Assembly (NCBI GenBank): GCA_038043445.1
Contig: JBBTBY010000087.1
Location: 1-39,117 of the forward strand
Origin: Spirochaetota bacterium
GTDB lineage: Bacteria > Spirochaetota > Brachyspiria > Brachyspirales > JACRPF01
Reading direction: 5' to 3'
DNA: 39,117 nt
In this document: positions 2,167 to 22,748 of the stretch, one piece after another
How the letters are laid out: every line of letters begins with the position of its first letter
How positions within the stretch are numbered: the first letter of the stretch is position 1
Made by a program: the position numbers and the translations under genes
Notes under the pieces: model-generated
Database searches by the model: none
Told to the model about the DNA's origin: nothing
The model's input: the letters and a program-made list of their open reading frames with translations, nothing else

Positions 2167-3021
2167 TCACGCGCTCGCTTTATCCGATGTTGCCGCCTGC
2201 TTATATTCGCTCGGCGATACATGCTCGTACTTCTTGAACAGACGGCTGAAATAGAGCTCATCCTTGAAACCCGAATTTATCGCCGCTTCGCGAACGCTGT
2301 ACCCCTGCAGGAGAAGGTCCTTGCTCTGACGCAGCCGCATGTTAAGGAAGTATTTCTTCGGCGTTACGCCGACATATTTCTTGAAGAGCGTCGCGGTGTA
2401 ATCATATCCGTACGGCGAGAGCGAGAACGCCTCGGCGACGGCATTATCATCGGCCAGATGGCTGTCGATATAGCTCATCATCTTGATGATGAAAAAGTAA
2501 TTATGATCGATGACCGTCTCGTTCTCCGAGAGATACGAATCATAGATGTACTCCGCGAGCACCGATGAGAAAAGGCTCTGCTGCAGTATGCTCTTTTCCT
2601 CGCTCTCATTGAGCGACTCATAGCGCGTGAACGCCGCGCGCACATAGTCCCAATTCGTGAATTTCGCTGTCGGCGAGAATTTTATCAGCGAAAAGAAATC
2701 GACGGTGCCGAACAGTTTCAGCTCGAAATGCTGGGCGATGGCCTCGAAATTATCCCTGCCGTGCACCGCGGTATAGAGCGACATCCCCGGTGTAGCGAGG
2801 AAGGCATGCCCCGGCGTAAGAAGATGTACCGTGCCGTTCGCCGTGAATTCCGCCGCACCGCCGTAACAGACGAAGAGATCATAGTCCTTGTACCCGGAAG
2901 GATTATTGATATGCCATGATGCGTTCTGGCTCTGCTTGCACGGCTTGGCGGTAAGGGTAAGCTTCAGGTTCTCAGGATGAATGATGTCAAGAAAAGTGGC
3001 GGACGGGCGCATGGCGCTCAC
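2167..3021 (-). CDS. AraC family transcriptional regulator with cupin sensor
   Basis: A 284-residue regulator. The N-terminal half is a cupin-like effector pocket (around residues 30-130; YKDYDLFVCYGGAAEF, LLTPGHAFLATPG). The C-terminal ~100 residues form the double helix-turn-helix of AraC proteins (VREAAINSGFKDELYFSRLF, then KKYEHVSPSEYK). The start is GTG at 3021, overlapping the ptsI stop (GTGA); an ATG three codons in (3012) is an alternative. Coupling to PTS enzyme I suggests it senses a sugar or sugar phosphate, but the target is unknown. A run of seven T follows the gene on its own strand near 2087-2093, with no clear stem. Confidence 0.88.
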   Translation of the reverse strand: MSAMRPSATFLDIIHPENLKLTLTAKPCKQSQNASWHINNPSGYKDYDLFVCYGGAAEFTANGTVHLLTPGHAFLATPGMSLYTAVHGRDNFEAIAQHFELKLFGTVDFFSLIKFSPTAKFTNWDYVRAAFTRYESLNESEEKSILQQSLFSSVLAEYIYDSYLSENETVIDHNYFFIIKMMSYIDSHLADDNAVAEAFSLSPYGYDYTATLFKKYVGVTPKKYFLNMRLRQSKDLLLQGYSVREAAINSGFKDELYFSRLFKKYEHVSPSEYKQAATSDKASA

Positions 3022-4832
3022 CGGTCATGCGCGATCGCCGTTTCGCCCGGCTTCACCGCCCGCGTAATGATCTCGGGGAATTTCTGCTGCATGAACTCGA
3101 TGACGAGCCGCCTCGCATCGGACGAACGCTCGGACGCGAAAAGCCTCTCGACGAGCGCCCTGCACTCGCCCGCATCCAGCCCGCGGATGACGCGCTTCAT
3201 GTCCGGTATCACGGGCGGCGCCATGGAAAGGACATCGACATCGAGGCCGACGAGCACGCATGAATAGAGCGGCTGCCCCGCCATTTCGCCGCAGACGGCC
3301 ACCGGTATTCCCGCCGCATGCCCGTTCTCAACGGTGCGCTTGATGAGCGAGAGCACGGAAAGATTGAGCGGATCGTACAGATAGCTTATCTTTTCGTTCG
3401 TCCTGTCGCAGGCGAGCGTATATTGAATGAGATCGTTCGTCCCGATGCTGAAGAAGTCGACCTTATGCGCGAACTTTTCCGACATTATCGCCACCGACGG
3501 TATCTCCACCATGATGCCGACCTTCACCTCGCTGTCGAAGGGGATAGTGCGTGCGGCAAGCTCTTCCTTCGCCGCAGCAAGATGGCCGAGCGCCTGTTCG
3601 AGCTCATCGACGCCGCTCACCATGGGGAACATGATGCTCGTTGCCCCGAAATGCGATGCGCGGAGTATCGCACGCAGCTGCGTACGGAATATCTCCGGGT
3701 TCGCGAGGCAGAAGCGTATCGCACGCCAGCCGAGGAACGGGTTCTCATCGACGTTCGTATTAACGACATCGGCCGATATGAATTTATCGCCGCCGAGATC
3801 GAGGGTGCGTATCGTGACCGGCTCTTTGGTGAACGACTCTATCACCTTGCGGTAATTGATGAACTGTTCTTCCTCGCTCGGGTAGCGGTCACGGCTTATG
3901 TAGAGGAATTCCGTACGGTAAAGCCCGATGCCCTCGGCGCCGAATTTCTTCACATCAGCGACGTCGTCGGGGTCCTCGATGTTCGCCTCGACCTTGATGA
4001 CGCGTTTATCCACGGTCACCGCGGGCACGCCGGAAAGGCGTATGTGCTCTTTCTGGAAATGCGTGAATATCTCGCGCATCGTCTCGTATTCGCGGAGTAT
4101 GCTCTCCGGCGGGTTGACTATCACATCGCCGTGTATGCCGTCGAGGATGAGCATATCACCCTGCTTGACATGGGTGCTGATGTTCACAAGACCGACGACG
4201 GCGGGTATGCCGAGCGAACGCGAGAGTATGGCGCTGTGCGATGTGTCGCCGCCGATATCGACGGCGAATCCGAGCACGAAATTCCTGTCAAGGTGCAGCG
4301 TGTCCGACGGCGTAAGATTATGCGCGACGACGATGACCGGCTCGTCGAGCTTCGGCGATTGAACGATATCCCGGTCCCTGATCAGGTGGCGCAGCACGCG
4401 GTTGCGTATGTCCATGATGTCGTGGACGCGGTCCTTGAGGATGGGATTATCAATGGCCGTGAGCCGCGAGACGAAGCGCATCATGATCTCGTTGTACACG
4501 TGATCGACGTTCTTGCGCTGCTTTTTTATCTCATCGCGGACTTCGTTCAATACGACCGTATCTTCAAGGATCTGAATGTGCGATTTGAGTATCTCGGTGA
4601 CGTCCTTCTGTACGTCCTTGTCGTAATTACCCTTAAGCGATAGTATCTCATCCTTCGATTCCCGTACGGCGGTCTCAAGCCGGCGTATCTCGGATTTTAC
4701 CTTCGATTCGGGTATATCGTACACCTCGACGACGATGTTGTCGTTGTGATAGAGAAATGCCTTCCCGATAACGATGCCGGCGCTGGCGCCGGTGCCGGTG
4801 AATGTCGTTGACTCTATCTCTTTTTCTTTCAT
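3018..4832 (-). CDS. ptsI: phosphoenolpyruvate-protein phosphotransferase (PTS enzyme I)
   Basis: Cytosolic enzyme I transfers phosphate from PEP to HPr at the head of the PTS. At 604 residues it is slightly longer than E. coli EI (575) and lacks the GAF domain of PtsP. Visible features are the N-terminal HPr-binding helical region, the phosphohistidine loop GGDTSHSAI (His199), GIGLYRTEFLY, TIRTLDLGGDK, the metal/PEP site NPFLGWRAIR, GTNDLIQYTLACDR, and VCGEMAG with the catalytic cysteine near the C-terminus. No HPr or EII gene is in the window. The gene is followed without a gap by an AraC regulator. Its promoter (4856-4883) gives a leader of only ~16 nt, so the GGAGG just downstream of the -10 box is probably not in the mRNA. 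Confidence 0.95.
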   Translation of the reverse strand: MKEKEIESTTFTGTGASAGIVIGKAFLYHNDNIVVEVYDIPESKVKSEIRRLETAVRESKDEILSLKGNYDKDVQKDVTEILKSHIQILEDTVVLNEVRDEIKKQRKNVDHVYNEIMMRFVSRLTAIDNPILKDRVHDIMDIRNRVLRHLIRDRDIVQSPKLDEPVIVVAHNLTPSDTLHLDRNFVLGFAVDIGGDTSHSAILSRSLGIPAVVGLVNISTHVKQGDMLILDGIHGDVIVNPPESILREYETMREIFTHFQKEHIRLSGVPAVTVDKRVIKVEANIEDPDDVADVKKFGAEGIGLYRTEFLYISRDRYPSEEEQFINYRKVIESFTKEPVTIRTLDLGGDKFISADVVNTNVDENPFLGWRAIRFCLANPEIFRTQLRAILRASHFGATSIMFPMVSGVDELEQALGHLAAAKEELAARTIPFDSEVKVGIMVEIPSVAIMSEKFAHKVDFFSIGTNDLIQYTLACDRTNEKISYLYDPLNLSVLSLIKRTVENGHAAGIPVAVCGEMAGQPLYSCVLVGLDVDVLSMAPPVIPDMKRVIRGLDAGECRALVERLFASERSSDARRLVIEFMQQKFPEIITRAVKPGETAIAHDR

Positions 4833-4930: not shown

Positions 4931-4959
4931 TTGACAGTCCATCTCATTGCACCTATACT
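4931..4959 (+). promoter_or_regulatory. strong consensus promoter for the 5001 gene
   Basis: TTGACA (4931-4936), exactly 17 bp, TATACT (4954-4959). The expected start near 4966 gives a ~35-nt leader. It is divergent from the ptsI promoter with about 45 bp between the two -35 boxes. Confidence 0.65.
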
Positions 4960-5000: not shown

Positions 5001-6653
5001 ATGGAACATGAAAGAACAACGATACTGAACGTCGAATATCATCATCGAAAGGTCGATAATGCCGATATGTACCTGACCGAATTCGGCATGCCCCTTGCGG
5101 ATATTCTCATGCCGGGGAATTTCCTCACCGATGAAGCATGGTTCAAGAACAATTCCACACGCCTATCCGGTACAAGCTGCCTCTATAAGGTACGCACCAA
5201 GGATATGCAGGGTCAATTCGCGGATATCGTCCTCAAATGGAACCGCATGGGCATGGCGGTACCCGTGGACACCTACATGAACGAGCTTGCCAATGCCGAA
5301 TTCAACAGCCCCTTTGAGGAATTCTCGCTTGTCATGGAGTTACGCGATGCCGTCCGCTGCTACGACATTCACCTCGCGCTGCAGAAACCGCTCGCTATCT
5401 ACGTACCCCGGGAGACCGTCGAGCTCTGGCAGAGCGGCCGCGAAGAATACCGGATGAATTACAAAATAGCGTCCCATAAGGAGATCGCCCTTGACATGAA
5501 CCGCTCCTACGCGGTCATCTATCAGTGGCTGCCCGGAATGGACGCCGCCGTCATGTGCGAGAAACAGATCATCAGTGCGGAAGAAATGGAACGGATCACC
5601 GTGGAAATGGACGATATGCTCCGCGGCATCGGTTTCCTCGTACGCGACAGAAAACCGCATCACATCATATTGAAACCGGATGAGAAGGAAGGATATACAC
5701 GGGACGCATCCGGGATGCCGGTACGCGCCCTCATCGACTATGAACTGCTCGCTCACACCAGCGAAAATGACGCCGTCATCAAGCGGCAGAAGCGGCAGAA
5801 CTACCTCAAGCGCCAGCGCGACCGGTTTACTACCGTGCCGGACCTGTCATCATACCCGCATCTGAAGCAGGTATCGATATTCGGCGTGGACTATGTCTAC
5901 GGTCACGCGGAAAGCACCGAGGGGCGGCTCTGGGTGGTCGGACGAGATCCATTGCTTTTCGATTATTTTCTGCCGGAGCGATGGGAGAACACGCCGAAGA
6001 CAAAAATATCGATGACGCGGGAGATCTATCACACGGTCACGAAGGACAATATCCATATTGTCTGGAAGCTGTCGCATGCGGGCATGAAGCCCGACATGGA
6101 CCCGTCCATCGATGAAGAGAACAAGATACTGCAGTACGGGTATAACAGCCCGTTCGAGGAAATATCCATCGCACTCGAACTGACCGAGAAGGGGATATTC
6201 ACGATATATCCGCGGGCGGTGTACATGGCCGGTTCGCATACCGCCATTCCCGAGGGCATGTCCGATATGAGCCGCTATCAAAGCCATGCGCCTGTCGTCA
6301 TGCCGGACGGAAACCCCCTCTTTACGCAGCATCATGACTACATCAGCATCTGGGGCTACTGGAACGGACCGGATGAGAAGCTCGCCGCCATCGATGATGA
6401 CTACTACGAAGGCATCGATGCGCTGCGGGCGCTCCGCAAAGGCGTCATCACCGAAGAGGTATACCGCCGCTGCATCGAAATAATCCGCGAGCGATTGTCG
6501 CTTGCAGGGATAGAGGACTTGAGCCTGCGCGGCAATCATCTGCTCCTGTCATTCGACTCGAAGGGCAGGCTCATCACGGGGAACGAAGGCGTGCCGGATA
6601 TACGCATATCGAATTTCGAATTCCTCAAGCGCAGGATCAACAGAGCGCAATAG
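5001..6653 (+). CDS. tandem kinase-fold-like protein, function unknown
   Basis: The 550-residue soluble protein has no signal peptide and no family I can name. It looks like two copies of one fold. Copy 1 (about residues 55-260) has a glycine-containing start (RLSGTSCLYKV), a VLKW strand with Lys79, a NSPFEEF helix start (102-108), a hinge-like YQWLPG (174-179), a catalytic-loop-like DRKPHHIILKP (216-226) and LIDYELL (244-250). Copy 2 (about 335-542) repeats them in order: HIVWKL (Lys356), NSPFEEI (382-388), a hinge-like YISIWGYW, RGNHLLLSF (510-518), IRISNFEFL (534-542). This order matches the kinase fold (beta3 Lys, alphaC Glu, hinge, catalytic loop, DFG). The HRD aspartate is not obvious in either copy and the DFG aspartate is Asn538 in copy 2. 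Pseudokinase or divergent kinase is my inference. Its own strong promoter makes it monocistronic. Confidence 0.6.
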   Translation: MEHERTTILNVEYHHRKVDNADMYLTEFGMPLADILMPGNFLTDEAWFKNNSTRLSGTSCLYKVRTKDMQGQFADIVLKWNRMGMAVPVDTYMNELANAEFNSPFEEFSLVMELRDAVRCYDIHLALQKPLAIYVPRETVELWQSGREEYRMNYKIASHKEIALDMNRSYAVIYQWLPGMDAAVMCEKQIISAEEMERITVEMDDMLRGIGFLVRDRKPHHIILKPDEKEGYTRDASGMPVRALIDYELLAHTSENDAVIKRQKRQNYLKRQRDRFTTVPDLSSYPHLKQVSIFGVDYVYGHAESTEGRLWVVGRDPLLFDYFLPERWENTPKTKISMTREIYHTVTKDNIHIVWKLSHAGMKPDMDPSIDEENKILQYGYNSPFEEISIALELTEKGIFTIYPRAVYMAGSHTAIPEGMSDMSRYQSHAPVVMPDGNPLFTQHHDYISIWGYWNGPDEKLAAIDDDYYEGIDALRALRKGVITEEVYRRCIEIIRERLSLAGIEDLSLRGNHLLLSFDSKGRLITGNEGVPDIRISNFEFLKRRINRAQ

Positions 6654-8154: not shown

Positions 8155-8206
8155 GGATGAATAGGACATCGTTGTACGAAAGTGACACCTGTCCTCCCCC
8201 TCCGGA

Positions 8207-8235
8207 TGGACAAACGGGCGTTTTTTTCCTATACT
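8207..8235 (+). promoter_or_regulatory. promoter of the cupin fragment, leaderless type
   Basis: TGGACA (8207-8212), 17-bp spacer, TATACT (8230-8235), then ATG at 8242 exactly where transcription should start. No ribosome-binding site is present. Confidence 0.55.
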
Positions 8236-8241
8236 GCGAGC

Positions 8242-8465
8242 ATGGCCCTTTTCATGAAAGCGGCGCCGTATACGGTGACGAAACATTTCCCCGAGCACGA
8301 GCACCCGACATGGCAGTTTAATATCTATCTCTCGGGCAGCGGTACGCTCACCGCACGAGACACGGCCATTGCGTTCGCGCCGCAGCGCATCATCTGCGTA
8401 CCGCCGAACACCGTGCACAGCGAAACAAGTGACGGAGAATATTCGGACATTGTCATCTGGAAGCG
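8242..8465 (+). pseudogene. AraC-type cupin (sensor) half, DNA-binding half missing
   Basis: From the ATG at 8242 the frame reads as the N-terminal cupin of an AraC regulator: TVTKHFPEHEHPTWQFNIYL, SGSGTLTARD, then the IICVPPNTVHS strand, a typical metal/ligand cupin pattern. Around SDIVIWKRR (about 8440-8465) the similarity ends. The frame continues with low-complexity Arg/Ser residues until 8655, overlapping in another frame the sigma region 4 segment. The AraC helix-turn-helix is absent. Either the gene was truncated by recombination with a sigma-factor gene or this is a frameshifted fusion. The promoter still looks intact, as it does for the divergent oxidoreductase. Confidence 0.6.
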
Positions 8466-8705
8466 GCGTTCATATCACTCCTCAGGGGATCGGTCGCACG
8501 TATGCTCAGTTCCCTCAATGAGCGCCAGCGAACGGCGGTCACGCTGCGCTTCGGTCTTGACGGCAGCCCCTCGCGCAGTCTTGAGGAAACGGGAACGCTC
8601 ATGTCGCTCACACGGGAACGTGTGCGGCAACTCCTCAATGAGGCGTTCCGGATGATCCGATCGCTTGAAGGTATTCATGCCATGCGGGCGCATATCAGAG
8701 AGTGA
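8459..8705 (+). pseudogene. sigma-70 region 4 fragment
   Basis: In the frame one step from the cupin, the segment before and after the ATG at 8502 reads as RpoD-type sigma region 4. SLLRGSVARMLSSLNERQR leads into TLRFGLDGSPSRSLEETG, then SLTRERVRQLLNEAFRMIRS. These are the conserved 4.1 (LNERQR..V.LRFGL) and 4.2 (TRERVRQ) elements that bind the -35 box. The open frame runs back to about 8459, directly at the end of the cupin similarity. Nothing of regions 2 or 3 is present. If translated from 8502 it would be a 67-residue free region 4. Remnant or one half of a frameshifted cupin-sigma4 fusion. Confidence 0.65.
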
Positions 8706-9181: not shown

Positions 9182-10543
9182 TTACGGCAGCGTCCCGTTG
9201 CTCTTCTCGCCGTGCAGGGTAAGATCGAGCCCGTACAACTCTTCCTGCGGCGCTACACGGAGCCCATTGATGAGCTTTATGAAGCCGAGGATGAGAAGCG
9301 TACCTACCACCGACCACACTATCGCAGCGCCTACCGAGGTAAGCTGCATGAGAAGCTGCTTCACATTCCCGTACAGGAGCCCCGCAGCCGGGGTGGTCCC
9401 GTCAAAATAGAACCCTATCGCCGGGTTGGCGAATATACCGGTCGCAATAGCGCCCCAGATACCACCGACACCGTGTACGCCGAAAGCATCGAGTGCATCG
9501 TCATAACCGAGCGCCTTCTTTATCACCGCGATAAAGAGATAGCAGACAATGCTCACGACAAATCCTATCACGAGCGCCGCACGCACATCGACGAAACCGG
9601 ACGCCGGGGTTATCGCAACAAGCCCCGCAACAAGACCGGTCGATGCGCCGACTACCGTGGGCTTCTTATGCATTATCCATTCTATCGCAAGCCAGGTCAC
9701 ACCGGCCATCGCAGCCGCGGTGTTGGTCACAAGGAACGCATTCGCCGCAAGACCGTTGGCAGCAAGCGCACTCCCTCCGTTGAACCCGAACCAGCCCACC
9801 CAGAGCAGTCCTGCACCGATGAAGGTGAACGGTATGCTGTTGGGCACCGGAACATCCTTGCCGTGCCGCACACGCGGGCCGAGCACTATCGCTGCAACCA
9901 GCGCCGATACGCCGGATGAGGTATGCACTACAAGGCCGCCTGCGAAGTCGAGCGCGTTCGAATATCCTTTCACGCCAAAGAGCTTTCCGATGATGCTCGT
10001 TCCTTCGGCGCCGCCCGAGAGCCAGCCGCCGCCCCATACCCAATGCGCAAGCGGGGCATAGACGAGAAGCGACCAGAGGATGATGAATATCACCCACGCG
10101 CTGAACTTTATCCGCTCCACCACGGCACCCGACACAAGGCCGACGGTGATGATGGCGAACATGAGCTGGAACATCGAGAACGCGAATTCAGGCACCGTGA
10201 ACGTGAGCGAGTCCTTGGTGACGCCGCCCATGAACGCCTTGTTCACATTACCGATAATGCCGCCGATCGACGAGCCGAACGCGAGCGAGTACTGGACTGC
10301 CACCCAGAGCACGCTTACGATGAGCGCCGATCCAAGGCTGTAGTAGATCGTCGACAGAAGATTCTTCTTCCGCACGAGACCGCCGTAGAACAATGCAAGG
10401 CCCGGCACGGTCATAAGCAGCACCAGTGCCGATGACGTGAGTATCCATGCAGTGTCCCCGGAATTGATCGTCGGTGCACTTTGCGCAAAGGCCCCGACGG
10501 CGCCCGCAAGCATAACACCAGCGAGCATGAACATCTTTTTCAT
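9182..10543 (-). CDS. amt: ammonium transporter
   Basis: Inner-membrane Amt/Rh-family ammonium channel, 453 residues from the ATG at 10543. An in-frame upstream extension is rejected because the GGAGG site sits six bases before 10543. The N-terminus is a cleavable signal peptide (MKKMFMLAGVMLAGAVGAFA), followed by about eleven membrane helices. Pore residues are visible: DFAGGLVVHTSSG with the first twin histidine, and AFGVHGVGGIWGA with the second. PGLALFYGGLVR marks the first helix. Expression is probably nitrogen-controlled via the sigma-54 promoter at 10580-10596, and activity via the downstream P-II protein. Confidence 0.95.
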   Translation of the reverse strand: MKKMFMLAGVMLAGAVGAFAQSAPTINSGDTAWILTSSALVLLMTVPGLALFYGGLVRKKNLLSTIYYSLGSALIVSVLWVAVQYSLAFGSSIGGIIGNVNKAFMGGVTKDSLTFTVPEFAFSMFQLMFAIITVGLVSGAVVERIKFSAWVIFIILWSLLVYAPLAHWVWGGGWLSGGAEGTSIIGKLFGVKGYSNALDFAGGLVVHTSSGVSALVAAIVLGPRVRHGKDVPVPNSIPFTFIGAGLLWVGWFGFNGGSALAANGLAANAFLVTNTAAAMAGVTWLAIEWIMHKKPTVVGASTGLVAGLVAITPASGFVDVRAALVIGFVVSIVCYLFIAVIKKALGYDDALDAFGVHGVGGIWGAIATGIFANPAIGFYFDGTTPAAGLLYGNVKQLLMQLTSVGAAIVWSVVGTLLILGFIKLINGLRVAPQEELYGLDLTLHGEKSNGTLP

Positions 10544-10579
10544 GATGCACCTCCGTAGATTTATTGACGAGTACAAGAT

Positions 10580-10596
10580 TGCAAGCCGTGTGCCAA
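10580..10596 (-). promoter_or_regulatory. sigma-54 (-24/-12) promoter of amt-glnK
   Basis: The minus strand reads TTGGCACACGGCTTGCA, a near-perfect TGGCAC-N5-TTGC sigma-54 element. Start predicted near 10570, giving a ~26-nt leader with a GGAGG site. RpoN and an enhancer-binding protein must be encoded elsewhere. Confidence 0.85.
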
Positions 10597-10684
10597 CAAT
10601 ACCTTCGATGCTGCTTTCAGAATGCATGCGCATGGCTTTCCATATTTCATCTAATGAACATTTGCCCGTCAGCGCGATATTCCG

Positions 10685-10701
10685 TGCACAAAGACGGTGC
10701 A
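10685..10701. promoter_or_regulatory. NtrC-like enhancer site
   Basis: TGCACAAAGACGGTGCA fits the TGCAC-N7-GTGCA NtrC consensus. It lies about 120 bp upstream of the predicted amt start, the usual position for an activator of sigma-54 promoters. Confidence 0.6.
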
Positions 10702-10711
10702 TGCGCGCGAT

Positions 10712-16502: not shown

Positions 16503-19500
16503 CTATCGAAGCACCATGACCTTCAGCATCTTCGTCTCCGCCCCCGATCTGAGCTGGCAGAGATAGACACCCGGTGATACGCGCGTACCGCTCGTTGTCA
16601 TCAGGTTCCACACCGCCTTACCCATGCCGTCCTTCGGCGGAACCACATCGGCGATGAATTTCCCGGAAATGGAGTAGATCTTCACCGTCGTATCCGCAGT
16701 GATATTAGCGAACACGATGCCCGCCCCGTCGCCGCGATAGGGACTCCCGACAGCCACAGCCTTGCTGAGCGTAGTCTGCTGAGAGAACATCCGCGTGAAC
16801 GCGATATTTCCCGCTATGGCCGATGTTACCGTCTGCCCGGCGCTTACCGTAACGCGGATGTCGTAAGCTTTCGACGTATCGAAGCCTGACGGTATCTTCC
16901 ACGTGTATTGATACGAAATGTTCTCATCGCCGATGCCGCGTCCGCCGGTGATATCTGAAGCAGGTATCTCTGTCCACGCGTTCTGCCCGGCTATCGAGTA
17001 TTCAAAACCGCTCTCGGCATTCCCGCAGAATCCCTTGAACGAGTACCGTATCGATACGCTCTGATCGACCGGCGATACTGCCGCGGTCAATCCCTCGATG
17101 GAAGAGTATGATTGTGATGTACCGTCCGACGATGTCAGCATGATCGATTGCCCGCCCGCCGTCGGCACTTCCTGGCATGATATGCCGTCGACATACACGG
17201 TGCAATTGGTCGTGAACAGTACCATGATACGCCCATTCGCTTCCGTGTACGCACAATCACCTTCGACAGAATACTGCTGCCACGTATCCGTGATAGTGAA
17301 CGTTCCGTTAAGATAGGTCGTCCACGGGGATGAATACTTGAGCAGCCTGAGACTGATCCGTGCGTTCGGCGTCCCCTTGAGCCATGCCGTCAAGCGGTAT
17401 CTCTTTCCCGATGCAACGTCAAACCCGCCCCGGTAGAACTGTATCGAATCGAGATTGGAATATCCGGTGACAACGATCTTCTGAGCTCCATCACCTTCTC
17501 TCTGCGTATTCGATTCTTTCGAGAATGCGGCCACTATACCGTTCGTGCCGTACCATCGGCTCCATCCCGGTGCAACACCGTTCGTATAACTTCCGTTCAC
17601 GAATCGGTCGTTCGAAAGTTTTTCCATCACCGTTACCGATACCGGCAACGAGACATTGGTATTCCCGACAGCATCACGCGCGATGAGCGTAAGCGTATGA
17701 TTCCCATTCGCCGCCGTCGTCGAATCCCATACCGATGTATACGGCGCCGTCGTACTCTCCGGGCCTTTCGCTGCGCCATCGACCAGGAGCTGTACCCCCG
17801 CAATGCCCGAACCGGTATCGCTTGCCGCAGCCGCAACTGATACCGCGCCCGCGACAACGCCTGCCGGCGACGTGATCGCAACTGTCGGCGGGGCTACATC
17901 ATAACCGTAGGCGAAAAGTGCGCTTCCCGGTATCACCTCGATGTTCGTGGTACCCGGTTTCTTCCATCCCATCGCAAGGTGATCGCCGCCCCCGCCCTCT
18001 TTCTGCAATGCCTCGATGTAATACTTCTTTCCGGCGATGAGCGTCGCGGTCCCGCGCTGCGTCGGATACTTCAACCAGTCACGGACACCGGTATATCCGC
18101 TCACCGATGCGATCTTCACTGCCGATGCCGGATCCGTCCCGTCGGAGAGCGAGAGCGAACCGCAATCGTCGGAAGCGATGTACAGCTCGTATGCTCCATC
18201 CGTCGGCGGGATGATATAGCCGCGCATACGCGTGCCGTAATTATCACGCCAGTAATTCGGCGCCTCGCATGTAGAGAGATAATTCGACGCATGCGCAGTG
18301 CCGCTCTTGAACGCGGCTGAATTCGTGAGCGAAGCGAGATCGCTCCCGGTGATGTTCGTCCACACTTCCCAAAGCACTTTCGACACAAGCACGCCGTCGT
18401 GCCGCGGATAGAGTACGGTTATCGTCGAACCGGTATTCCCGAGCGCGTCCTTCGCGTACACCTTGAACGTCGTCGATGCTGCTATCGCGATACTTGCCGA
18501 TGACGTGAACGACAGCCAATTCGCACCGCCGTTCGTCGACCAGTATCCCGTACCGTCGGAAATGGATATCACGACCGTCGTGCCGCCGGTGAACAGCGCC
18601 GGGGGCGACATGGTCACTATCGGAGCGGACGTATCGATAGTGAACACCCTCGAATTCGTCGTGCTGTTGTTCCCGAGCGCATCGCGGCCGTAGAGAAGCA
18701 CGGTCGTCGTATTACTGATAAGGAGATTCGTGCCCGCGGTCGTGAATGCGACGTATGCGCTCCCGTTCGTCGAGAAATAACCGCTGTTCTCCGTCGTCGT
18801 CAGCGTTGCCGTGAACGCCTTATTCGTCGTGAATGCCCCGAACGAGGCCGATACCGTCGGCGCTGTCGTATCGAACGTGTACGTCCGCGTATTCGTCGTG
18901 CTATTATTGCCGAGCGCATCGCGGCCGTAGAAACTGAGCGTCGTCGTACGGTCTATCGTCAGATTCGTTCCCATCGTCGTAAAAGCGACGTATGCGCTCC
19001 CGTTCGTCGAAAAATAGCCCGTGTTCTCCGTCGTCGTCAATGCCGCCGTAAAGGGCTTATTCGTGGTGAACGTACCGATCGAAGCCGAGACTGTCGGCGC
19101 GGCTAGATCAAGCATTCTCGTCAGCGAGTTATTCGATTCGTTCGCTTCCGGTATCCTGTTCACATCGTCTACAAGCGCCTTGACCGTATGCATACCGCTT
19201 ACTGCGGTCCACACATTGGTAGTACTTGTTGACCATTTTGCGGTACCCGTGACCGTGATCGAAGCCCCCGCCGCCATGGACGTTGTCGGCCCGCCCACGC
19301 TGAGCGGAACATCATTTACCCAGAACACGACGGCATGGAACACGTTCGTCGATGCCCCGAGACCGGCATTCGATGCTACCGCGCTCATGGTCACATAGTC
19401 ACCGGGCTTCGGATATGCCGGCGACCATGCAATACTGCTGATCACGAGATCGGCTTTATTCACGGTATACGTTATCGTGTTCGTCGTGCTGTTGTTCCCC

Positions 19501-22500
19501 AATGCATCCCTGCCATAGAGAGCGAGCGTTGTCGTCCTATCGAGGAACAGATTGGTGCCCGCCGTAGTGAACGCCGTGAACGCAGAACCGTTCGTTGAGA
19601 AGTATCCCGTATTCTCCGTCGTCGCGAGAACGGTCCTGAACGCCAGATTCGTCGTTACCGTTCCGATCGATGCGCTTACCGTCGGCGCTGTCGTATCGAA
19701 CGTATACGTCCGCGTATTGGTCGCACTATTATTGCCGAGCGCATCGCGTCCGTAGAGATTGAGTGTCGTCGTACGGTCGATCGTAAGATTCGTTCCTGCT
19801 GTAGTGAACGCCGTGAACGCGGAGCCGTTCGTTGAGAAGTAGCCGCTGTTCTCCGTCGTCGTCAGCGCTGCCGTGAACGCCTTGTTCGTCGTAAGCGAAG
19901 CGACCGAAGCGCCTACCGTCGGTGCTGTCGTATCGAACGTGTACGTCCGCGTATTCGTCGTGCTATTATTGCCGAGGGCATCGCGTCCGTAGAGATTGAG
20001 TGTCGTCGTACGGTCTATCGCAAGATTCGTCCCTGTTGTCGTGAATGCGACGTATGCACTCCCGTTCGTCGAGAAATAGCCGCTGTTCTCTGTCGTCGTC
20101 AGCACAACGGTGAACGGCTTATTTGTCGTAAGCGTACCCACCGATGCGCTTACCGTCGGCGGCGTGGTGTCGGTGACTATCGTGTATGTACGGGAATTCG
20201 TTGCGCCGGTATTTCCCCATATATCGCGTGTGTAATACCAGAACGACACCGTCCTTGATATCGTCACGTTCTGACCCGACGTTGTTATCTGCGTGAACGG
20301 CCCCGTCGCACTGTTCGTCGTCCAATAGCCGTAATTTTCATTCACATCGAGGGGGAGAACGAACGATGCATTGGTGCTGAAGCTGTTGAGCACGCCGGTC
20401 ATCACCGGCGGCGCGGTATCGATGGTTATAGTTACCGCATTCGTCGGGCTGCGCGGGGGCGAACCGGCCACGTCGCTGTAGTACCATATCGTTGTCGTGC
20501 GGTCGACGGTGAATTGGTTCGAATAGGTGACGGAATACGAATTCGGATGGTCCAATTTCGTATACGGCCCGTTGATGCTGTTCGTCGAAAAATAACCGTA
20601 CAATGCGGACGGATATATCGCCACCGTTATCGCCTTGTTCGTGGTGATATTCCCCGTGATATAGGTCCCCGTACTCACGTTCCGTATGGTCATTGCCGGC
20701 CACAGCTCGACATTCGATGTTGTTGACGCAAGTATGGGCGTGAACACCGATTCCCCGTACTCGTTCGTGGCGGCCACTTTATAATAGTACGTGGTCGAAG
20801 GCTTCAGACTGGAATGTGTCCACGACGTGGCGTTCGGCAATGTCGCCGTGTAGCGGGTGAACGCGGTACCGTTGGTGCTCGTATATATGTTGAAACCGCT
20901 TTCATTGCTCGACTTATCATCCCACTTTATCGTGATGTAATTCGACTTTATCGTCTGCGCTATGAGATTGCTCGGACCCGCATTCACATAGTTCGCGATA
21001 TGCACGAGCGGTCCGGCAAGCGGCGATTGACCGGCGGCATTCGATGCGGCGACCTTGTATGCATACACCATGTTCGTTGCAAGGCCGCTGTCCATATATT
21101 GAATGGTGTTCTGCGGCACTGAGGCGAGAAGCGCATAAGCGCCATTATTGACGCTGCGGTACAGATTGAATACGCTTTCATTTATCGCATTATCATCCCA
21201 GGAGAATGTCACCGTATTTGTCGTTGCTGACAGCTTTGTCACGAATGTCGGCGCTTCCGGCGGCATTACTCCGCCATTCGTCACGATAACGCGGGAAACG
21301 GCGTATCCCGGGCAGAGCATGCGGTCCGTCGTATATGCGGCGGCGTATATCGTATGCTCACCGTCGGCAAGACCCGCGGTGTTCCACGAATAGGAAAGAG
21401 CACCGCCTGCCGCCGTCGTTTTGAGCGCATCATCGATGTAGAGATCTATCTTCTGGATCGATCCGCCGCTCAGGCTGGCATTCACCGAGACGGTAAGCGT
21501 TCCCTTCACCGATGTCCCGTTCAAGGGCGATGTGACAGCGACTATCGCCGCCCTCCCGAACGGACGCGACAGCGGATCGCCCACGAATGTGACCGGCCCG
21601 CGAACTTCGCGCCATGAGGTGAAATACGCCGCTTCGAGCGATGTAAACCCCTTCATGAACGCACTTCGGAACGACTCGGAATAATTCGTATACGCCGATG
21701 CGCGGAGAAATCCGAGGAACGGCTCGGTCACCGCCCCGGAGAACGTGGCATACCCGAGACGGAAATAGATCGGTTCCGGGAACTGCTGCTGGAGCCGGCT
21801 CTCGAAGAAATGATCGGGCAGACAGCCGAACGATTCATGCGCTTCGGCATAGGCCCCGACGGCAGCCATGGGATCGGGGAGATAGGTGGTATAATTGCCG
21901 TAGTTGTAGCCGGAATACGTCCCGCCATGCAGGAGCACGACGACATCCTTTACATTGTTCGCTTTGTAATTGTAGCTCCCCGCATACCATGATGCCGGTA
22001 TTCCAGCATTCTTTATCCAATTCGACGCAAGGTTCGTACCTTCGTTCTGCGGAAGCACCGAGTACGGTCCTATCTGCAGTATCCATCGCCCTGTCTTTGC
22101 TGCTGCCTGCGTCCCGTCACCGGCAACAGCATTATCGATGCCCCGTTTCACATCCGTGACAGAATAACCGGCGAGATGCGCCGCAAGACGGAATTTTCCG
22201 TAGGAGGTGTAGGTATTCGTACACGAGAAGGCATAGCCGCCGCTGATGAGCGCGTTCGCATAGAGATTACCCCCGTGCCAAGGGCTTGCTTCATCTACCG
22301 GATAGATGGCAGCTGTCGCCAGATGCGATGCGACCGAAATATCATTCGCCGCGCTCGGCAGACGTACGCGCACCGGGATGCCGGATGAAAGAACGATATA
22401 ATCTATGGTATTCGTAAGCCCGCGCGCTGTTATCGCATTGAATACGGGATGATACAGCTCGTTCGTATACCGCGTAAATGTCGACGCGCTGTAGTAATTC

Positions 22501-22748
22501 GCCAACGCATCGCTGTTGTTGAGCCCGAGATACAGTATATTCGTCTCAGGAATGGCGCGCTTCATCCGGTAATAATTCGCTATCGTGATGGAATCCTGCC
22601 AATTCGTGTTCACCACAAGCAGCACGCGATGCGGGAGCGGAATGGCAGTGAGCATCGCCCCAAAAGAGAATAGCATCGCGATACGAATCGGCCATGATCG
22701 GCAGCGGTCATTTTTCGCAGCTGATTTCTTTTCACTTACACGATTCAT
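16503..22748 (-). CDS. giant secreted multidomain protein, TIGR03790 head with repeats
   Basis: A 2081-residue exported protein. In order: a signal peptide after a basic start (to ~37); a TIGR03790 domain (~38-393; VLLVVNTNWQDS, NILYLGLN, IDYIVLSSGIPV); a bacterial Ig domain (~400-486); two FN3 domains (~496-678); two divergent and three near-identical ~79-residue repeats (~683-1098; ENSGYFSTNGSA, YGRDALGNNS); a CARDB domain (~1098-1215); two more repeats plus one divergent copy (~1215-1450); PA14 (~1456-1613); Ig (~1616-1703); a CBM4/9-like module (~1706-1856); a further beta-domain; and a FlgD/T9SS-like C-terminal domain (~1990-2081, GVYLCQLRSG). This looks like a cell-surface glycan-binding or adhesion protein. 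No catalytic residues can be named. GAGAGG site before the ATG. Confidence 0.85.
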   Translation of the reverse strand: MNRVSEKKSAAKNDRCRSWPIRIAMLFSFGAMLTAIPLPHRVLLVVNTNWQDSITIANYYRMKRAIPETNILYLGLNNSDALANYYSASTFTRYTNELYHPVFNAITARGLTNTIDYIVLSSGIPVRVRLPSAANDISVASHLATAAIYPVDEASPWHGGNLYANALISGGYAFSCTNTYTSYGKFRLAAHLAGYSVTDVKRGIDNAVAGDGTQAAAKTGRWILQIGPYSVLPQNEGTNLASNWIKNAGIPASWYAGSYNYKANNVKDVVVLLHGGTYSGYNYGNYTTYLPDPMAAVGAYAEAHESFGCLPDHFFESRLQQQFPEPIYFRLGYATFSGAVTEPFLGFLRASAYTNYSESFRSAFMKGFTSLEAAYFTSWREVRGPVTFVGDPLSRPFGRAAIVAVTSPLNGTSVKGTLTVSVNASLSGGSIQKIDLYIDDALKTTAAGGALSYSWNTAGLADGEHTIYAAAYTTDRMLCPGYAVSRVIVTNGGVMPPEAPTFVTKLSATTNTVTFSWDDNAINESVFNLYRSVNNGAYALLASVPQNTIQYMDSGLATNMVYAYKVAASNAAGQSPLAGPLVHIANYVNAGPSNLIAQTIKSNYITIKWDDKSSNESGFNIYTSTNGTAFTRYTATLPNATSWTHSSLKPSTTYYYKVAATNEYGESVFTPILASTTSNVELWPAMTIRNVSTGTYITGNITTNKAITVAIYPSALYGYFSTNSINGPYTKLDHPNSYSVTYSNQFTVDRTTTIWYYSDVAGSPPRSPTNAVTITIDTAPPVMTGVLNSFSTNASFVLPLDVNENYGYWTTNSATGPFTQITTSGQNVTISRTVSFWYYTRDIWGNTGATNSRTYTIVTDTTPPTVSASVGTLTTNKPFTVVLTTTENSGYFSTNGSAYVAFTTTGTNLAIDRTTTLNLYGRDALGNNSTTNTRTYTFDTTAPTVGASVASLTTNKAFTAALTTTENSGYFSTNGSAFTAFTTAGTNLTIDRTTTLNLYGRDALGNNSATNTRTYTFDTTAPTVSASIGTVTTNLAFRTVLATTENTGYFSTNGSAFTAFTTAGTNLFLDRTTTLALYGRDALGNNSTTNTITYTVNKADLVISSIAWSPAYPKPGDYVTMSAVASNAGLGASTNVFHAVVFWVNDVPLSVGGPTTSMAAGASITVTGTAKWSTSTTNVWTAVSGMHTVKALVDDVNRIPEANESNNSLTRMLDLAAPTVSASIGTFTTNKPFTAALTTTENTGYFSTNGSAYVAFTTMGTNLTIDRTTTLSFYGRDALGNNSTTNTRTYTFDTTAPTVSASFGAFTTNKAFTATLTTTENSGYFSTNGSAYVAFTTAGTNLLISNTTTVLLYGRDALGNNSTTNSRVFTIDTSAPIVTMSPPALFTGGTTVVISISDGTGYWSTNGGANWLSFTSSASIAIAASTTFKVYAKDALGNTGSTITVLYPRHDGVLVSKVLWEVWTNITGSDLASLTNSAAFKSGTAHASNYLSTCEAPNYWRDNYGTRMRGYIIPPTDGAYELYIASDDCGSLSLSDGTDPASAVKIASVSGYTGVRDWLKYPTQRGTATLIAGKKYYIEALQKEGGGGDHLAMGWKKPGTTNIEVIPGSALFAYGYDVAPPTVAITSPAGVVAGAVSVAAAASDTGSGIAGVQLLVDGAAKGPESTTAPYTSVWDSTTAANGNHTLTLIARDAVGNTNVSLPVSVTVMEKLSNDRFVNGSYTNGVAPGWSRWYGTNGIVAAFSKESNTQREGDGAQKIVVTGYSNLDSIQFYRGGFDVASGKRYRLTAWLKGTPNARISLRLLKYSSPWTTYLNGTFTITDTWQQYSVEGDCAYTEANGRIMVLFTTNCTVYVDGISCQEVPTAGGQSIMLTSSDGTSQSYSSIEGLTAAVSPVDQSVSIRYSFKGFCGNAESGFEYSIAGQNAWTEIPASDITGGRGIGDENISYQYTWKIPSGFDTSKAYDIRVTVSAGQTVTSAIAGNIAFTRMFSQQTTLSKAVAVGSPYRGDGAGIVFANITADTTVKIYSISGKFIADVVPPKDGMGKAVWNLMTTSGTRVSPGVYLCQLRSGAETKMLKVMVLR
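18630..20150 (-). repeat. 237-bp repeats inside the giant gene
   Basis: Five near-identical units of about 237 bp: three at roughly 19455-20150 and two at roughly 18630-19105. They are split by the CARDB-encoding segment. Each encodes TTNK-F...LTTTEN-GYFSTNGSA and YGRDALGNNS. DNA-level similarity is high, pointing to recent duplication or gene conversion, and this is a likely site of length variation and misassembly. Confidence 0.85.

Follow-up and report, generated by a model that had tools for sequence, protein, structure and literature searches.

The window analysed here, 39,117 nucleotides of a Spirochaetota genome, contains a gene whose product carries one set of kinase-like motifs twice in a single chain. 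This raises the question of whether the protein is a two-lobed pseudokinase, as a preliminary description of the window had proposed, or whether part of it could still be an active enzyme, and which cellular process it might then serve.

Family and distribution

The open reading frame list gave an ATG-initiated frame encoding 550 amino acids (Table 1). It is a genuine gene, present in a single copy in the window's genome. By scanning the genomes of approximately 85,000 species, we identified 94 loci with a relative, 80 of which were retained. More than 75 full-length homologues from approximately ten bacterial phyla were found, all with the two-module layout. The carrier records include Spirochaetota, Elusimicrobia, Omnitrophota, Nitrospirae, Planctomycetota, Verrucomicrobiota, Lentisphaerae, Kiritimatiellae, Deltaproteobacteria, and Fibrobacteria, a list that is not exhaustive. 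Nearly all of the homologue matches cover residues from about 2 to 545, indicating that the two-module layout is fixed, and the full-length two-copy homologues in many phyla exclude a fusion artefact. The distribution is sparse, with members in 7 of 393 Spirochaetota genomes, 7 of 236 genomes of one verrucomicrobial class, and 3 of 249 genomes of one planctomycete class. Four loci (L045, L081, L083, and L084) have split or shortened frames, which reflect sequencing errors or gene decay.

No Pfam, NCBIfam, or PADLOC family matched the tandem protein, so that members would at present be annotated as hypothetical. Among 69 members, none matched Pkinase (PF00069) at E 0.1, and the Pfam gathering threshold was not reached. 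ABC1/UbiB (PF03109) was matched weakly by three of the 69 (best E 0.011) and Kdo/WaaP (PF06293) by one (E 0.052), in both cases below the Pfam cut-off, and a single-copy relative (L097) showed a similarly weak ABC1/UbiB match (E 0.11). Membership of these named kinase families was therefore rejected. An anti-phage defence role was also discarded, because three members searched against PADLOC matched no family at E 1 and homologues were absent from the plasmid and phage records searched.

Table 1. Features of the tandem-protein locus, with window positions; residue counts refer to the 76 full-length rows of the family alignment.
Feature	Position	Strand	Evidence
ptsI (PtsI, phosphoenolpyruvate--protein phosphotransferase), divergent neighbour	3018..4832	-	NCBIfam TIGR01417, E 9e-182, above cut-off
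Predicted sigma-70-like promoter, TTGACA-17-TATACT	4931..4959	+	11/12 consensus bases
Tandem-protein gene	5001..6653	+	ORF; full-length homologues, ~37-57% identical, many phyla
Copy 1, residues 7-271, kinase-like module	5019..5813	+	AlphaFold2, fold matches, conserved columns
G57-T58-S59, putative glycine-rich-loop equivalent	5169..5177	+	G57 75/76, T58 69/76, S59 67/76; absent from copy 2
K79, putative ATP-anchoring lysine (VAIK position)	5235..5237	+	76/76
E107, αC glutamate in NSPFEE	5319..5321	+	76/76
D216-x-K218-P-x-H221, catalytic loop (HRDxKxxN position)	5646..5663	+	D216, K218 76/76; H221 75/76
D246-Y-E248-L-L, DFG position, metal-binding Asp kept	5736..5750	+	D246, E248 76/76
Copy 2, residues 287-544, pseudokinase module	5859..6632	+	hhalign to copy 1, E 7e-31
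E387, αC glutamate, kept	6159..6161	+	75/76
WGYWNGPD, residues 451-458, after hinge strand, copy-2-specific	6351..6374	+	68-73/76 per position, except Y453 52/76
S508, R510, H513, degenerate catalytic loop	6522..6539	+	Position 508: N52, S8, Y4, D4 of 76; H513 76/76
N538, DFG-Asp position	6612..6614	+	Asn 72/76

Internal duplication

The two halves of the protein are homologous. Profiles of residues 40–285 and 286–550, each built from 76 family members, were aligned by hhalign over 206 columns with an E-value of 7.2e-31 and a probability of 99.9%, compared with E = 0.16 for a control in which the second half was reversed. The repeat of the same ordered motifs, noticed in the preliminary description, is thus borne out, and the motifs named there pair up: the VLKW strand bearing K79 corresponds to the VWKL strand bearing K356, NSPFEE at residues 102–107 to its counterpart at 382–387, the catalytic-loop stretch DRKPHHII (216–223) to SLRGNHLL (508–515), and DYELL (246–250) to NFEFL (538–542) at the DFG place.

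We constructed a tree from both halves of 22 proteins and five single-copy relatives, in which a branch with 100% support separates all copy-2 modules from all copy-1 and single modules. This topology indicates a single old duplication that preceded the spread over phyla and, to judge from the sequences, one ancient event is the origin of the two-module layout. The single-copy relatives (L097, L098, L100, L102, and L103), for which a search had been suggested beforehand, all group with copy 1. Two of them, L097 and L100, nest among the verrucomicrobial copy-1 modules, suggesting that copy 2 was lost; both have Arg at the position of K79. The other three form a separate group on the copy-1 side of the tree. 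One genome (G455) encodes a tandem protein (L092) as well as a single-copy protein (L100).

Predicted fold

With the family alignment, AlphaFold2 modelled the whole chain at a pLDDT of 90.6; copy 1 alone reached a pLDDT of 94.8 and a pTM of 0.89. In a Foldseek search, the best 50 PDB matches listed were kinases or kinase-fold entries throughout, for the whole-chain and the copy-1 models, with match probabilities of 0.97–1.00 among the best 50 listed for copy 1. The TM-scores to known kinases were about 0.3, with rmsd values mostly of 7–12 Å, and limit the likeness to a divergent kinase core. The whole-protein superpositions were poor, and TM-scores were still near 0.3 when copy 1 was modelled alone. 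Few helices follow the DFG segment in the models. In the viral structure library, Ser/Thr kinases ranked at the top, with one unrelated polyprotein among the best matches. The copy-1 sequence profile matched 16 PDB chains at E-values of 10 or below (best 0.077). Each of these chains is a protein kinase, twitchin kinase among them, and individually none is significant; the copy-2 profile matched no PDB chain. Judging by these models, the protein almost certainly adopts a tandem kinase fold, as had been proposed, and copy 1 has the bilobal core fold of the PKL superfamily, as a divergent member.

Catalytic residues of copy 1

The four PKL residues, β3 Lys, αC Glu, catalytic Asp, and DFG Asp, are all present in copy 1, in each of the 76 rows. 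The second metal ligand, typically but not universally Asn in the PKL superfamily, is His in 75 rows and Asn in one. The loop formed by D216, K218, and H221 also gave a weak profile match to the catalytic loops of PAK, ULK, and RAD53. The complete conservation of the Lys, the αC Glu, the catalytic Asp and Lys, and the DFG Asp, residues on which a functional kinase depends, makes activity probable, and we consider it likely that copy 1 is catalytic.

These observations divide two of the earlier claims. Active-site acids had been regarded as altered, which applies to copy 2 with its Asn538 and does not apply to copy 1, where K79, E107, D216, and D246 are invariant. Similarly, the term two-lobed pseudokinase captures the tandem kinase fold and the degeneration of copy 2, but not copy 1, which keeps the K/E/D/K/D series in all 76 proteins. 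This conservation rules out that both copies are degenerate, and the protein is better described as an N-terminal kinase module, probably active, that is followed in the same chain by a pseudokinase.

Copy 2

In the proteins included in the tree, copy 2 no longer possesses a Gly loop, carries Asn or Ser in place of the base Asp, and has Asn instead of the DFG Asp in all 22, while the αC Glu is kept. Copy 2 therefore lacks both the catalytic Asp and the DFG Asp of the PKL superfamily, and conforms to the definition of a pseudokinase as a kinase fold in which the Lys, the HRD Asp, or the DFG Asp is lost. The WGYWNGPD signature is not present in copy 1. The mean column identity is 58% in copy 2 versus 55% in copy 1, and the identity to the nearest homologue is 65% versus 51%. 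Read from the alignment alone, copy 2 is a pseudokinase under selection, probably serving as a sensing or docking module.

Gene surroundings in the window

The tandem gene is flanked by the divergent ptsI and by a convergent gene for a Gfo/Idh/MocA oxidoreductase. The strong promoter noted in the preliminary description agrees with a predicted sigma-70-like site close to consensus in the interval between ptsI and the tandem gene (Table 1). Elsewhere, the window encodes an AraC-family regulator (2167–3021, minus strand; HTH_18 and AraC_binding), a protein whose sole match is an AraC-type cupin ligand-binding domain (8182–8655, plus strand), and an ammonium transporter (9182–10702, minus strand; Pfam PF00909, E 2.4e-117). 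A 2081-residue multi-domain protein (16503–22748, minus strand) with Big_7, fn3, CARDB, PA14, and weak C-terminal sorting domains is probably a large secreted protein.

Neighbouring genes across the family

A GTP-type PEP carboxykinase, PEPCK(GTP), is the immediate neighbour of the tandem gene at eight loci. Its gene lies upstream on the same strand at four (L035, L037, L039, and L064), downstream at three (L053, L068, and L095), and divergently at one (L050), in carriers from Planctomycetota, Verrucomicrobiota, and Fibrobacterota. Other loci adjoin further enzymes of the PEP–pyruvate–oxaloacetate–malate node: a PycB/OadA-like protein resembling subunit B of pyruvate/oxaloacetate carboxylase (L016, L018, and L065), malic enzyme (L008 and L015), malate dehydrogenase (MDH; L041), and aspartase (AspA; L074 and L080). 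An ADP-forming acyl-CoA ligase adjoins L027 and L062, and PTS EIIA proteins adjoin L009, L078, and L013. A second recurrent neighbourhood, found in several phyla, combines PTS EIIA-type proteins with Na+/H+ antiporters beside the kinase gene (L005, L009, L013, and L078).

At the genome-contig loci, PEPCK accounted for 7 of 152 adjacent open reading frames and for none of the 384 more distant ones (p 1.3e-4), with L095 as an additional case. When PEPCK, PycB, malic enzyme, MDH, AspA, and PtsI were pooled, the counts were 15 of 152 versus 0 of 384 (p 3.7e-9); because the families other than PEPCK were picked after being seen and the loci are phylogenetically related, the pooled value is optimistic and weight should be given to the PEPCK figure alone. 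At approximately four fifths of the loci, no enzyme of this node adjoins the tandem gene.

PEPCK(GTP) also co-occurs with the family at the genome level. It was present in 46 of 50 carrier genomes, versus 257 of 393 Spirochaetota (65%; p 3e-5) and 77 of 113 genomes of one verrucomicrobial class (68%; p 5e-4), by Fisher tests uncorrected for phylogeny. We found neither a GTP- nor an ATP-type PEPCK in the window's genome (G000, 97% complete). This rules out PEPCK as an obligatory partner and implies that it is neither universal nor the only one.

Proposed role

The gene often adjoins enzymes for the interconversion of PEP, pyruvate, and oxaloacetate, which suggests that the protein is probably a switch in central carbon metabolism. 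Copy 1 would be a minimal, probably ATP-dependent protein kinase that holds Mg-ATP by means of K79/E107, D246, and H221 and phosphorylates a protein with D216 as the catalytic base. Its activity would be set by copy 2 through the binding of a metabolite or a partner. The likeliest targets would be PEP carboxykinase, pyruvate/oxaloacetate carboxylase, malic enzyme, or, in the window's genome, PTS enzyme I, so that carbon could be directed either to gluconeogenesis or to catabolism, much as AceK directs it at isocitrate dehydrogenase. Taken as a whole, a pseudokinase-regulated kinase at the PEP–pyruvate–oxaloacetate node is a reading that we put forward tentatively, as a plausible one. The family, its duplication, the kinase fold, the intact and the degenerate site, and the gene neighbourhood are computational results, from which catalytic activity, allostery, and target are inferred. 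The most specific form of the reading, in which the catalytically dead duplicate would respond to a C3/C4 metabolite and thereby control copy 1, with PEPCK, pyruvate/oxaloacetate carboxylase, malic enzyme, or PtsI as the protein phosphorylated, is rather doubtful.

Copy 1 might instead phosphorylate a sugar, a nucleoside, or another metabolite, with copy 2 assisting in acceptor binding. The metabolic gene neighbours and the His at the loop Asn position, a feature of WaaP, are compatible with such a small-molecule kinase, as are the weak Kdo match of one member and the absence of any recognised feature of an activation segment or of peptide binding. However, the neighbours are differing enzymes of one node rather than members of one biosynthetic pathway, and the fold and profile matches are mostly protein kinases, which renders this alternative unlikely.

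The protein might also be an active kinase that serves some other housekeeping or stress function and whose gene lies near central-metabolism genes by chance, as the unrelated neighbours at most loci and the missing PEPCK in the window's genome could indicate. Such an incidental neighbourhood is quite unlikely in view of the upstream, downstream, and divergent arrangements of PEPCK in three phyla and its restriction to adjacent positions within the same loci, to which L095 adds.

That copy 1 binds ATP and acts as an AMPylase, a glutamylase, or a UbiB/COQ8-like ATPase appears improbable: the weak ABC1/UbiB matches, the atypical Asn-to-His exchange and D[YF]E in place of DFG, and the presence of Rv3197 and MSMEG_1954 among the fold matches listed would agree with it, but all 76 proteins retain K, E, D, K, and D in canonical succession, which fits ordinary phosphotransfer. 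A scaffold of two pseudokinases that senses ATP or a metabolite and controls its partners by binding would account for the missing catalytic acids of copy 2, the His in place of Asn as the second metal ligand of copy 1, and the Arg at the K79 position in two single-copy relatives, but is likewise improbable, given that the base, the Lys, and the two acids of copy 1 do not vary among the tandem proteins.

If the preferred reading is true, the family would constitute a phosphorylation switch on the PEP–pyruvate–oxaloacetate node and would be the counterpart there of AceK at the isocitrate node. We know of no kinase-fold regulator of this node in bacteria, from a search that was not exhaustive.

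Comparison with known systems

AceK is a bacterial isocitrate dehydrogenase kinase/phosphatase that switches a central-carbon enzyme (PMC6591243, PMC3747045). The likeness to the tandem protein would be one of purpose and not of descent; no relation was detected, and AceK was absent from the best 50 fold matches listed. The nearest solved folds are ULK1/2, FIKK13, haspin, RIO2, CDK9/12, and PknB. The tandem protein shares with the protein-kinase superfamily an N-lobe strand Lys, an αC Glu, a D-x-K-P loop, and an Asp at the DFG position, in the same order, and differs in the His at the loop Asn, in D[YF]E instead of DFG, in the few C-lobe helices, and in TM-scores of about 0.3.

The UbiB/COQ8 (ABC1) atypical kinases are approached through the weak profile matches of a few members and through mycobacterial UbiB homologues among the fold matches listed, although the profile matches are below the Pfam cut-off. 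The WaaP/Kdo lipopolysaccharide kinases share the His at the loop Asn position, which is known for WaaP, and one weak, below-cut-off Pfam match, but are single-domain proteins with another gene context.

A 2025 review describes the bacterial pseudokinase families ActPs1-3, GLW, CP1, DYD, and DLHK, which have degenerate motifs and are drawn from Ser/Thr (Hanks-type) kinases (PMC12599244); its main text names neither tandem or duplicated families nor Planctomyc-, Verrucomicrob-, or Spirochaet- groups. In our literature searches, the tandem kinase–pseudokinase family was found in no paper. It may already be listed under a number among the 72 kinase-like families of KINtaro (PMC10870513), and we would classify it as a divergent new family of a superfamily that is already known.

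Because the pairing of kinase and pseudokinase is fixed across many phyla that have received little study, the family offers a simple natural system in which to ask how a dead copy controls a live one. The eukaryotic tandems JAK and GCN2, which originated independently, likewise combine an active and a pseudokinase module in one chain. The bacterial protein differs from them in the N-terminal position of its putatively active module and in a duplication that took place within a divergent bacterial family.
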